DNA of 6,233 nt. Source: an uncultured Lachnospiraceae bacterium. Its GTDB lineage: Bacteria; Bacillota_A; Clostridia; Lachnospirales; Lachnospiraceae. Every line of letters starts with the position of its first letter. Position 1 is the stretch's first letter. Location of the stretch: contig USDU01000156.1 of NCBI GenBank assembly GCA_900553635.1, positions 1 to 6,233 of the forward strand, written 5' to 3'. Position numbers and translations under genes: made by a program. The notes beneath the pieces are model-generated. The model was not told the DNA's origin and made no database searches. It saw nothing but the letters and a program-made list of their open reading frames with translations. Positions 1,400 through 5,220 of the stretch are shown here, in pieces.

Positions 1400-1418
1400 A
1401 AAATGAGGAGTGACTGGC

Positions 1419-1447
1419 TTGCAAATCCCCCTCGGATATACTATGAT
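1419..1447 (+). promoter_or_regulatory. Sigma-A-type promoter for the hybrid kinase gene
   Basis: A -35 box TTGCAA (1419-1424, five of six consensus bases) and a -10 box TATGAT (1442-1447, five of six) are separated by exactly 17 bases. Transcription would start near 1454, leaving a leader of about 45 bases before the ATG at 1499. It starts 19 bases after the HD gene stop, so the kinase could be expressed on its own. The whole spacer is the left arm of the inverted repeat described separately, which is unusual for a promoter. There is no extended -10 TG. Confidence 0.6.
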
Positions 1448-1495
1448 AATCTTAGCGAAAGACGCGAAAAATCATCGTGTATTCGAGGGGGATTT
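1423..1495 (+). promoter_or_regulatory. Long stem-loop that would sequester the kinase ribosome binding site
   Basis: AAATCCCCCTCGGATATAC (1423-1441) pairs with GTGTATTCGAGGGGGATTT (1477-1495) over 19 positions. There are 17 Watson-Crick pairs and two G-U wobbles (1435/1483 and 1439/1479). After one mismatch, ATGAT (1443-1447) pairs with ATCAT (1471-1475), and a small GCG/CGC hairpin with an AAAGA loop (1455-1465) caps the structure. The right arm contains the whole Shine-Dalgarno GAGGGGG (1485-1491) and ends three bases before the start codon. The G-U pairs suggest selection on RNA rather than on a DNA palindrome. The four T residues after the G run could also make it a weak terminator for the HD gene; both roles would insulate the kinase from upstream transcription. 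Confidence 0.6.
1485..1491 (+). promoter_or_regulatory. Ribosome binding site that fixes the kinase start
   Basis: GAGGGGG lies seven bases before the ATG at 1499. An in-frame ATG at 1403 would add 32 residues, but it has no upstream Shine-Dalgarno (the bases before it are A-rich), and the extension (ending SSCIRGGFY) does not look like a PAS domain. Translation is therefore assigned to 1499. Confidence 0.75.
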
Positions 1496-1498
1496 TAT

Positions 1499-3475
1499 AT
1501 GAATCAGCTGAATGAGACAGATGCTGAGAAGATACTTTCTGCGGTCCGGATCGGTCTGTGGCGGGTGGAATTTGAGGAAGGAAAACCGACCCGTTTTTAT
1601 GCGGACGCAGTGATGGACGAGCTGCTGGGTGTGACCGGGGATGTGACGCCGGAGGAGCGCTTCCGGTTCCATATCGCCCATGTGCATCCGGCAGATATGT
1701 CCATGTTTCAGGAATATGCGGATAAACTGGCGGAAGTACGGACAGAGATTGTATACCGGTATCTGCACCCCTTAAAAGGGGAAATGATCGTGCGCTGCGG
1801 CGGTGTGCGGGACATGTCGGAGAAGGGCTTTATCTATACCATGGGGACGCATCAGGATATCTCTGAAACCGTAAGGCTGGAGCGGGAACGGGAGATGGAG
1901 CGGCGGCTGAAGGAGATGAATAAGAGCCTTCAGAGGGATCGGGAACGCCGGGAGGATTATTATCGTGAGCTTCTGGATATACAGAGCTGTGGAATTCTTG
2001 CCTATACCATACCGGATCACCGGGTCGTCCATATGAATGCGGAAGCACTTCGCATGTACGGGATAAAGAATATAGGTGATGCACAGGAAAAAATCGGGAA
2101 TGCCTTGCGGAGCGTATACTATCCGAAACCGGGGACTGTGGAAAGACTGAGAAAGCTTCAGAAAGAAGATGATTCCGTGGATTACGAGTGTATCATCGGA
2201 AAAGGCAGTTCCAATGAGAGCCATATTGTGGCCAAGACGAAGATTGTGCAGATTCCGACCGGAGAGCGGGCTGCCCTTACCACTTTTGTGGATATCTCAG
2301 AAATGATGGTTCTGAAAAACGCCCTGCGGCAGGCAGAGGAGGGGAGCCGGGCCAAATCAGCCTTCCTCTTTGCCATGTCCCATGATCTTCGGACGCCCAT
2401 GAACGCGATTATCGGCTACGCGAATCTGATGGAGACCCACTGGGGGGAGAAGGAGCTTACCGCCGGATATCTGAAGAAGCTGAAAGAGGCCAGTCAGTTT
2501 TTGCTTGGTCTTATCGGAAATGTGTTGGAGCTTGCGCGGATTGAGAGCGGAAAAGAAAGCTTAAGCGAAGAGGTCTGGGATATGCGGAAGCTGGAAGATA
2601 CCATTGATATGCTTCTGAATGATGAGATAGTCAGAAAGCATCTGAAGCTGGAAAAGCATATGCGTGTGACGCATCCCTATATCTATTGCGACGCCATGAA
2701 GCTGCGGGAGATTCTGATGAATCTCATGAGTAACGCAGTGAAATATACGCCTGCAGGAGGAAAGGTCTGCCTGACAATGGAAGAACTGCCCTCTGAGAAA
2801 GCTGGATATGCGCAGTTTCGCGGGATTGTAGAGGACAGCGGCATCGGTATCAGCGCGGAATATCTACCCCACATTTTTGAGGAATTCACAAGAGAACGGA
2901 ATTCATCGGAAAGCGGAATTCAGGGAACAGGTCTGGGACTGCGAATTGTGAAGTCCTTTGTGGATATGATGGACGGAAGCATCCTGGTAGAAAGCGAGCA
3001 GGGAAAAGGAACCCGGTTCACAGTTTTACTTTCCTGCCGGATTGCGGAGAAAAATGATCTGAAGCAGAAGGAAGCCTCCACGGACAGACTTATGCTTTCG
3101 GGAAAACGAATTCTTCTGGCGGAGGATAATGTGCTGAACGCGGAGATTGCCATGACGCTGCTTGCGGACGCCCAGGCGGAGGTGGACCTTGCGGAGGATG
3201 GCGTCTGCGCAATTCAGAAACTTCGGGAGGTGCCGGAAGGGTATTATGATTTGATCCTGACGGATATTCAGATGCCGCGGATGAATGGATATGAGATGGC
3301 GAAGACCATTCGGGCACTTCCTGACGCCAAAGCGTCCATACCAATCATTGCCATGACGGCCAATGCTTTTGAGGAAGATCGAAGGGCAGCCCTGGCAGCC
3401 GGTATGGATGGCTATGTGGTGAAGCCGGTGGAGACGGCAGCGCTTGGAAAAGCCATAGCGGAGCTTAAAATTTAA
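1499..3475 (+). CDS. Cytoplasmic PAS-PAS hybrid sensor histidine kinase with receiver domain
   Basis: This 658-residue protein autophosphorylates on His and passes the phosphate to its own receiver. Residues about 8-122 look like a PAS_3-type sensor ending in GTHQDIS. A charged coiled coil (about 125-158) leads into a second PAS-like domain (about 158-270) that also ends in VDIS. The HisKA box SHDLRTPMNAI has its phosphoacceptor at His295. The ATPase domain shows an N box with Asn408 and Asn412, a G1 box with Asp446, and GTGLGL (476-481). The receiver (about 535-656) has Glu542/Asp543, phosphoacceptor Asp589 (LTDIQMPRMNG), Thr620 and Lys642, so all its active residues are present. There is no signal peptide, membrane helix, Hpt or output domain. 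It must therefore sense a cytoplasmic signal and signal through another protein. The gene has its own promoter and a potentially occluded ribosome site, and it converges on the ABC operon. Confidence 0.93.
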   Translation: MNQLNETDAEKILSAVRIGLWRVEFEEGKPTRFYADAVMDELLGVTGDVTPEERFRFHIAHVHPADMSMFQEYADKLAEVRTEIVYRYLHPLKGEMIVRCGGVRDMSEKGFIYTMGTHQDISETVRLEREREMERRLKEMNKSLQRDRERREDYYRELLDIQSCGILAYTIPDHRVVHMNAEALRMYGIKNIGDAQEKIGNALRSVYYPKPGTVERLRKLQKEDDSVDYECIIGKGSSNESHIVAKTKIVQIPTGERAALTTFVDISEMMVLKNALRQAEEGSRAKSAFLFAMSHDLRTPMNAIIGYANLMETHWGEKELTAGYLKKLKEASQFLLGLIGNVLELARIESGKESLSEEVWDMRKLEDTIDMLLNDEIVRKHLKLEKHMRVTHPYIYCDAMKLREILMNLMSNAVKYTPAGGKVCLTMEELPSEKAGYAQFRGIVEDSGIGISAEYLPHIFEEFTRERNSSESGIQGTGLGLRIVKSFVDMMDGSILVESEQGKGTRFTVLLSCRIAEKNDLKQKEASTDRLMLSGKRILLAEDNVLNAEIAMTLLADAQAEVDLAEDGVCAIQKLREVPEGYYDLILTDIQMPRMNGYEMAKTIRALPDAKASIPIIAMTANAFEEDRRAALAAGMDGYVVKPVETAALGKAIAELKI

Positions 3476-3512: not shown

Positions 3513-5220
3513 AAATTTCGGGAATATCTGCGTTACCGTGAAGAGTAAAGGTGCGTCCAAATTCCGCCGAGGTACGGTGGGAGATGGAAAGCACGGTGCG
3601 GTGCGCACAGACACGGCGCAGGGCCCGCAGTACATGCTGCTCGGTCTCCGCATCCAGGTTGGCGGTGATTTCGTCCAGCAGCAGAAGATCCGGGTCGGAA
3701 GCGGCTGCCCGTGCGATGGAAAGAAGCTGCCACTGGCCCTGGGAAAAGAGCTCCGGCGCGCAGGGGGTATCATAGCCTTGCTCCAGATGGGAAATGGTGT
3801 TGGAGAGGCCGGTCAGCGCTGCCGCTTTTCGGACGGCTTCGTCGGAAATGGCCGGATCGAACAGCGTAATCTGGTCCCGCACGGTTCCGGGAACCATGTG
3901 GAAGGACTGCTCCACGTAGCCGAAGAGCTTCCGGCGTCTCGCTTCCGGAATGAAGGCCGCCGGGACGCCGTGAATCAGGACCTGTCCGGAGGTGGGCCGG
4001 TAAAGACCCAGGAGCAGCTTGAAGAGCGTACTTTTTCCGGCTCCGGTGCGGCCCAGGAGCGTCAGCTGGTCTCCGGCTTCGACGGTCAGGTTCAGGTGCT
4101 TCAGAACGGGCTTGCCATCCTCGTAGGCAAAGGAAACGTCACGGAATTCCACGATGGGAGCGTCGGCAGCCGCCCTTCCCCCATTTTCAGTAAGAGCGGG
4201 AGAATCGGAAGCACCGGTTTCCGGGCGTTCCTTCTCCGGCAGTTCCAGAAATTCCTGTATCCGGTGGATACCCGCCATCGCCGACTGAATGGTCTGAATC
4301 TCCATGCCCAGGCTCTCTACCGGGGAGAAGATCTGGGAAATATAGTTCATGACAGCCACGGCGGTACCGGCAGACATACCGAAAAGTGTCAGAATCCGGG
4401 GGCCTCCGGAGGCGGACAGCAACATAACGGCGGCCACGACTACTGCGTTCAGAATCAGGATAATGGGCGAGTAAATGGCATCGTAGAAATTCGTCCGTTC
4501 CATGGCCCGGTAGCTGTCGCCGATATAACGGTCATACTGCTGCTCCATATAGCGCTCTTTGCCCAGCGTTTGAATGGTGCGGATGTTGTGCAGGGTTTCC
4601 GGCACATGGGCGGAGGCGCGGCTGACGGCTCTCCGGTTTTCGATCTGGGCAGCCAGCATATTTTTCTGCACATGCCGGGTAAAAAGAAAGAGAAGGGGCA
4701 GAAGCAGCAGGAAAATCAGAGCAAGGCCCTTCGTCTGAAACCAGACGACAACCAGGATACTGATAATCTTACAGGCGTCTGCGAACATGCTGATGATTCC
4801 GGAAGTGAAAAGGTTCTCCACGGTATCCACATCGCCCACGAAGCGGGAGACTACCGCGCCAGGCTCCTGACGGTTCAGATCTTCGGCGGAGAGGCGGACA
4901 AATTTACCCATCAGGCGGCTGCGAAGCGCGTGGGTAATTTTCTGGCCACAGACGGTCAGAAGGCCCTCTCTTGCAGATTCCAGAAGTCCGGTAAGGGTCA
5001 GCATGATGAAATAGAACAGAACCAGAAAGAGCGGGGGCAGGGTTCCCAGTGTCAGGGTGTCGATGATGCGTGCCAGCACCAGCGGCGGCACCAGGGCAGT
5101 CAGGATAGCGCCGCAGACCGAGAGCAGAATGCCGAGGGCAAGGAGCCGGTGCCGGGCCAGGGTGGATAGAATAATCTGGCAGACGGGAGATACCTCGTTT
5201 CCTTTTTTTGCATGCTGCAT
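3511..5220 (-). CDS. ABC exporter half-transporter (permease-ATPase fusion), subunit with the consensus catalytic Glu
   Basis: This 569-residue protein is a type IV ABC exporter half: a six-helix membrane domain (about residues 20-310, hydrophobic runs near 26-50, 61-81, 141-160, 165-181, 251-270 and 280-297) fused to an ATPase (about 355-569). The nucleotide site shows A-loop Tyr366, Walker A GRTGAGKST (390-398), Q-loop Gln438, Walker B LLLLDE (Asp516, Glu517) and switch His548. The signature is degenerate: FSQGQ (492-496) instead of LSGGQ. The protein ends only 21 residues after the switch His, so the usual final helix is missing or reduced. The start at 5220 is set by AGGAGGT; an in-frame ATG 19 codons upstream overlaps the neighbouring gene and lacks support. 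Its stop lies in the terminator stem. It almost certainly pairs with the product of the upstream gene. The substrate (drug, peptide or lipid) cannot be told. Confidence 0.93.
   Translation of the reverse strand: MQHAKKGNEVSPVCQIILSTLARHRLLALGILLSVCGAILTALVPPLVLARIIDTLTLGTLPPLFLVLFYFIMLTLTGLLESAREGLLTVCGQKITHALRSRLMGKFVRLSAEDLNRQEPGAVVSRFVGDVDTVENLFTSGIISMFADACKIISILVVVWFQTKGLALIFLLLLPLLFLFTRHVQKNMLAAQIENRRAVSRASAHVPETLHNIRTIQTLGKERYMEQQYDRYIGDSYRAMERTNFYDAIYSPIILILNAVVVAAVMLLSASGGPRILTLFGMSAGTAVAVMNYISQIFSPVESLGMEIQTIQSAMAGIHRIQEFLELPEKERPETGASDSPALTENGGRAAADAPIVEFRDVSFAYEDGKPVLKHLNLTVEAGDQLTLLGRTGAGKSTLFKLLLGLYRPTSGQVLIHGVPAAFIPEARRRKLFGYVEQSFHMVPGTVRDQITLFDPAISDEAVRKAAALTGLSNTISHLEQGYDTPCAPELFSQGQWQLLSIARAAASDPDLLLLDEITANLDAETEQHVLRALRRVCAHRTVLSISHRTSAEFGRTFTLHGNADIPEI

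Follow-up and report, generated by a model that had tools for sequence, protein, structure and literature searches.

The translation start of a hybrid sensor histidine kinase gene in an uncultured Lachnospiraceae bacterium is predicted to be sealed by an RNA hairpin with 25-nt arms. The explanation that we consider best, and hold tentatively, is that on read-in RNA this sealed start would be opened by translation of a 27-codon leader. From the computed hairpin, sealing and leader geometry we infer that read-in transcripts reach the hairpin, that the leader is translated and that its translation is coupled to that of the kinase. The whole stretch of DNA analysed, hereafter the window, is 6,233 nucleotides long and contains the following genes:

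161-676, + strand: flavodoxin gene
812-1399, + strand: HD-domain gene (HD_3 / YfbR-like), the co-directional neighbour upstream of the kinase, stop codon TAA at 1397-1399
1499-3475, + strand: hybrid sensor histidine kinase gene, 658 amino acids (HisKA, HATPase_c and a receiver domain, Response_reg), start codon ATG at 1499-1501
Minus strand: two ABC-transporter genes, labelled as such by their sequence rather than by a family scan

The HD protein shares 99% identity with a protein named Laedolimicola intestinihominis, which makes that genus of Lachnospiraceae the probable source, and the closest protein cluster to the kinase stands at 97%. No Pfam family was found at 0.001 in the N-terminal sensor part of the kinase (window 1499-2350); some kinase relatives, 64-65% identical, are labelled PF08447 or PF13426. 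An alternative in-frame start for the kinase, the ATG at 1403, would give a protein of 690 residues and was rejected: its Shine-Dalgarno sequence reaches just -0.6 kcal/mol, and all ten homologues examined start at 1499 or within about 12 residues of it. On the + strand, a 543-codon open frame at 3538-5169 lies antisense to an ABC-transporter gene and is probably a shadow of the codon usage of that gene.

The elements at the kinase start are arranged as follows:

1419-1447, + strand: promoter-like site TTGCAA-17-TATGAT, 9/12 match, predicted start near 1454
1423-1447, + strand: left arm of the hairpin (anti-Shine-Dalgarno)
1448-1470, + strand: hairpin loop of 23 nt
1471-1495, + strand: right arm of the hairpin
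1485-1491, + strand: kinase Shine-Dalgarno GAGGGGG within the right arm, duplex energy -9.6 kcal/mol

The original prediction had described a 19-bp inverted repeat, which we find at 1423-1441/1477-1495. Past a mismatch at 1442/1476 the repeat runs on for five further pairs, so that the arms are in fact longer, at 25 nt each with 22 Watson-Crick pairs, two G-U pairs and one mismatch. The two G-U positions noted before are indeed present, at 1435/1483 and 1439/1479, and the kinase Shine-Dalgarno does lie within the right arm, four bases in from the arm end. The left arm, which had been reported to hold the promoter spacer, takes in most of the -10 box too. This repeat is beyond chance: it scores 21, the best score across 60 dinucleotide shuffles of the window being 15.5, and the hairpin RNA has a fold z of -4.8, with equal stability in none of 200 shuffles. 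Rfam gave no matches in the window at the gathering score, the phage search gave no match, an exact pattern for the hairpin base was absent from 397 genomes of the family, and the plasmid search returned pieces in 5 records, covering no more than 3% of the query. The sole match to this pattern in a viral contig was dismissed, its sequence being unlike ours outside the patterned arms. An invertible promoter segment was also considered, for which 23 nt between the arms seems too short.

Folding in silico agrees with the proposal that RNA containing the left arm hides the kinase Shine-Dalgarno and that RNA begun at 1454 frees it. For nine starts tested between 1250 and 1424 the site is on average 0.00 unpaired, and opening it in these RNAs is predicted to cost 19.5-23.5 kcal/mol, whereas in RNA from 1454 it is 0.37 unpaired and takes 3.6 kcal/mol to open. 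Along a sweep of start positions the unpaired fraction is 0.04 at 1428, 0.28 at 1432 and 0.27-0.55 for 1436-1465. When the RNA from 1454 is folded to 1560 or 1600, the site is only 0.15-0.17 unpaired, and opening still costs about 4 kcal/mol. The read-in opening cost of 19.8 kcal/mol is higher than any among 270 background gene starts (maximum 16.2), which were taken from 400 kb of two relatives with gene starts called by a simple script. As computation, the hairpin and the sealing are solid, and the hairpin is a regulatory element of a known kind.

The original prediction was right about the hairpin and overlooked a short open frame that passes through it:

1405-1410, + strand: leader Shine-Dalgarno GAGGAG, separated from the HD stop by 5 bases, duplex energy -7.7 kcal/mol
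1419-1502, + strand: putative leader open reading frame of 27 codons with a TTG start; its stop TGA at 1500-1502 overlaps the kinase ATG (ATGA, -4 spacing)

The leader Shine-Dalgarno is spaced 8 bases from the TTG at 1419, and the frame crosses both hairpin arms and the loop. Because this frame runs through the hairpin onto the kinase start with a Shine-Dalgarno of its own, read-in RNA is not simply blocked, and the earlier statement that it is does not follow. How often would such a frame arise by chance? We counted leaders that had 15 codons or more, a Shine-Dalgarno reaching -7 kcal/mol or better, and a stop no further than six bases from the kinase start. Shuffling 1400-1484 yielded one in 6 of 5000 trials, or in 106 of 5000 when the arms were preserved, and 3 of 949 intergenic gene starts without a hairpin have one; among the 22 other hairpin-sealed starts in relatives, none has a coupled leader of this definition. 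Against the leader count its TTG, a weak start codon, and its post hoc identification. Codon usage does not settle the matter, the leader's score of 1.3 being ambiguous (15% of in-frame windows have this score or a lower one, 12% of off-frame windows this score or a higher one).

We hypothesize that the decision would fall during transcription of the RNA. If a ribosome entered the leader before the polymerase passed about 1485-1490, the arms would be kept apart and translation could be handed over to the kinase. Such a ribosome might be drawn from the free pools or arrive by re-initiation after the HD stop, and HD ribosomes terminating there, 20 bases upstream, would be a natural supply. If none arrived in time, the leader and kinase starts would both be sealed. 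A transcript begun inside or past the left arm would allow the kinase to be translated without the leader.

For RNA ending at 1440-1480, the leader initiation region (1404-1433) takes 8.0-9.3 kcal/mol to open; for ends at 1490, 1500 and 1545 the figures are 20.7, 28.3 and 26.4 kcal/mol, respectively. On the finished RNA, leader initiation costs as much as kinase initiation (26.4 vs. 27.6 kcal/mol) because the stem starts two bases past the leader start codon, and this counts against the leader. The leader Shine-Dalgarno and start alone are cheap to open at all RNA lengths (4.0-6.6 kcal/mol), the cost of the region residing where the left arm begins. As long as the nascent RNA lacks the right arm, weak pairing is predicted between the left arm and the leader Shine-Dalgarno (window 1405-1433), so that the leader and kinase sites are competitors for a single arm. 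A ribosome placed at leader codons 1-9 (odd codons modelled) leaves the kinase Shine-Dalgarno 0.34-0.48 unpaired; one at codons 11-17, in the loop, lets the basal stem re-close, and the value falls to 0.00; for codon 19 it is 0.84. At codons 21-27 the site is open only through the ribosome's own cover, so hand-over requires re-initiation. From the opening costs and ribosome positions together, the outcome on read-in RNA should therefore hinge on entry into the leader within the roughly 70 transcribed bases before the arms are completed.

An extension of this scheme, which we regard as quite improbable, is a two-entry gate. The single anti-Shine-Dalgarno arm would pair with the leader site in nascent RNA or with the kinase site in finished RNA, kinase would be made from read-in RNA only while HD and leader ribosomes closely trail the polymerase, and the nested promoter would provide a second, ungated supply. 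If this were true, the level of the kinase would report both the origin of its transcript and how tightly translation follows transcription.

Among the genomes searched, the junction of HD and kinase genes with its hairpin was seen only in the window. A protein scan of genome contigs with the kinase found only distant kinases (8 loci, 27-40% identity), and whole-genome searches yielded four homologues of 56-64% identity. The genus search found homologues in 4 of 64 genomes (at most the best 19 candidates per genome scored), the family search in 1 of 397 and the order search in 2 of 392, the latter being two of the same four homologues (best 3 candidates per genome scored in both). Three smaller genus searches gave nothing close; at a looser limit 0 of 1, 1 of 2 and 2 of 5 genomes had matches of 48-52% over the C-terminal part. 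The four homologues sit in other neighbourhoods (500 bases upstream compared), their Shine-Dalgarno sites open cheaply at 0.5-4.2 kcal/mol, and none has a comparable stem, the best nearby score being 6.5-7.5. The HD gene was followed through sets of 9 and 16 orthologues, two of them common to both, for a total of 23, and no close copy of the kinase follows any of these within the flank compared. About 770 bases downstream of one HD orthologue (L064) lies part of a generic kinase of 40% identity.

Predicted sealed starts are not confined to this kinase. In a survey of 2.69 Mb from two Lachnospiraceae genomes, window included, a stem scoring at least 12 lies over the Shine-Dalgarno at 25 of 1973 scored gene starts (about 1%, the window's kinase counted in); removal of one start with an upstream gap under 60 and of one duplicate leaves 23 with the window and 22 others. 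A Pfam scan of 20 of these 22, over the first 300 residues at most, identified four transposases, two Mutator-type and two DDE_Tnp_1-associated, which together with one each of MarR-, MerR- and TetR-type regulators make up 7 of the 20. The transposase genes with sealing hairpins (L053:2573, L162:1998, L074:7404 and L130:13085) are as expected for read-in protection. A promoter match of at least 9/12, placed to escape the hairpin, is present at 9 of the 22 starts, compared to 4.9 expected from matched controls (P 0.035), or at 10 of 23 compared to 5.2 when the window is included (P 0.019); two of the nine belong to the DDE-type transposases L074 and L130. At a cut-off of 8/12 the count is 15 vs. 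8.8 expected (P 0.007), and at 10/12 it is 4 of 22 vs. 2.3 (P 0.20). Without the transposases it is 7 of 18 vs. 4.3 (P 0.10), or 11 of 18 vs. 7.6 at the 8/12 cut-off (P 0.07). A smaller count against shuffles, which ignore that promoters are common in such places, gave 9 of 17 (window included) vs. a mean of 2.1. Promoters lying upstream of the arm, whose RNA would be sealed, show no significant deficit (4 of 23 vs. 6.2). On this thin evidence, origin-dependent sealing may be a recurrent design that is driven in part by transposases.

Two starts in these genomes deserve mention. A MarR-family gene at L118:17095-17523 (- strand) has a perfect 19-bp inverted repeat with a 9-nt loop that hides its Shine-Dalgarno, and an 11/12 promoter match placed so that its predicted RNA escapes the left arm. 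On the - strand of L122, a long stem scoring 20.5 covers the apparent start, near 9687, of an ABC-transporter ATPase gene whose true start is uncertain.

Does the sealed start depend on the leader, or on where the transcript begins? The original prediction held that the hairpin prevents kinase initiation on read-in RNA and that a promoter in the left arm yields a short free RNA from about 1454. We rank this reading second and hold it doubtful; coupling through the leader, which we rank first, is at least as likely, and the two can both hold. The promoter hexamers lie where they had been placed (TTGCAA at 1419-1424, a 17-base spacer at 1425-1441 and TATGAT at 1442-1447). Their 9/12 match speaks for dependence on origin, as do the contrast between 0.00 and 0.37 unpaired, the escape promoters at other sealed starts and the precedent of T4 gene e, as presented in the relevant part of PMC3014915. 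However, the window contains 7 sites of equal quality compared to 4.6 +/- 2.3 across 50 shuffles, and of 908 intergenic gene starts in two relatives, 29% have a match of at least 9/12 in the same relative place. By these counts the nested promoter is ordinary and stands at base rate; it is possible, not indicated. The sealing of the Shine-Dalgarno and its escape in RNA from 1454 are supported in silico. For the class as a whole, the excess of escape promoters at 9/12 loses significance at the stricter cut-off or when transposases are left out, and promoters that would produce sealed RNA are not significantly rarer. The leader could, moreover, unseal the hairpin on read-in RNA, and the hairpin is absent at the four kinase homologues.

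The hairpin could instead be mainly a weak intrinsic terminator or attenuator of the HD gene that contains the kinase Shine-Dalgarno by chance, with leader translation or a second promoter permitting transcription of the kinase. This we consider unlikely, and it takes third place. Its stem has a G-C-rich base followed by ATTTTATAT, and the U-tract score of 2.21 is higher than in 27 of the 29 stems within genes and in 27 of the 85 that lie downstream of one; against this, it falls below the median of 2.9 for the downstream stems. Some support comes from the HD orthologues, as stems scoring at least 12 after 2 of the 23 (L062, 12; L068, 15) fit ordinary terminators, and shorter G-C-rich stems follow three others (L031, L034 and L067). 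No stem near the score of 21 follows any of the 23, however (for L065 only 83 bases past the stop were compared), and a 23-nt loop with 25-nt arms is unusual among terminators. Very improbable, in our estimate, is that the repeat works as DNA, as an operator overlapping the promoter, with the RNA hairpin as a by-product. The arms do overlap the promoter-like site, and some of the other surveyed starts with long repeats encode MarR-, MerR- and TetR-type regulators. On the other hand, 25-nt arms 23 nt apart would make a long operator; G-U pairs, which RNA pairing would tolerate, account for two of the three imperfect positions; and the right arm sits on the kinase Shine-Dalgarno.

Should the leader or the nested promoter act as proposed, translation would determine how much of a hybrid sensor kinase a gut Lachnospiraceae species contains, according to the start point of the RNA and to whether the leader is read, and this would be a case outside phages and transposons. 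All of the proposed mechanisms are of known kinds: mgtQ-mgtB and coupled gene pairs for the leader, T4 gene e and td for transcript origin. In IS10, IS50 and IS200, fold-back hairpins protect the transposase from read-in transcription, and the kinase hairpin likewise hides a ribosome site in read-in RNA; here, however, the gene is a chromosomal sensor kinase (HisKA, HATPase_c, Response_reg) and no transposase. In an open-licence library of papers, fold-back sealing gave no match, and none of the titles listed for related subjects, a sensor kinase among them, was on point.

In T4 gene e and td/I-TevI, according to the part of PMC3014915 that deals with them, the ribosome site is sealed in early read-in RNA, and a late promoter within the 5' strand gives RNA in which it is open; for gene e, the 5' ends and the structure were mapped and lysozyme synthesis was down 100-fold. 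The present locus shares an upstream strand that seals the Shine-Dalgarno and a promoter-like site in that strand. It differs in that this promoter is predicted from sequence, at base rate, and in that a leader frame is present.

For coupling through the leader, the closest likenesses are mgtQ-mgtB and, grouped with it as translational coupling, the coat-lysis pair of phage MS2. As in mgtQ-mgtB, described in the relevant sections of PMC8092293, an intergenic short frame has its own Shine-Dalgarno and the downstream Shine-Dalgarno is sealed in a stem. The overlap of stop and start (NTGA) is that of the commonest coupled pairs, for which an RNA-unfolding model has been put forward, in the portion of PMC12548453 concerned with spacing. 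Translation of mgtQ frees the mgtB ribosome site from its stem, but the logic of that precedent differs from ours, because efficient mgtQ translation lowers mgtB, as far as the same sections of PMC8092293 describe it. Moreover, mgtQ has 8 codons and acts through alternative stems, whereas the putative leader at our locus extends across the entire stem and terminates on the kinase start.
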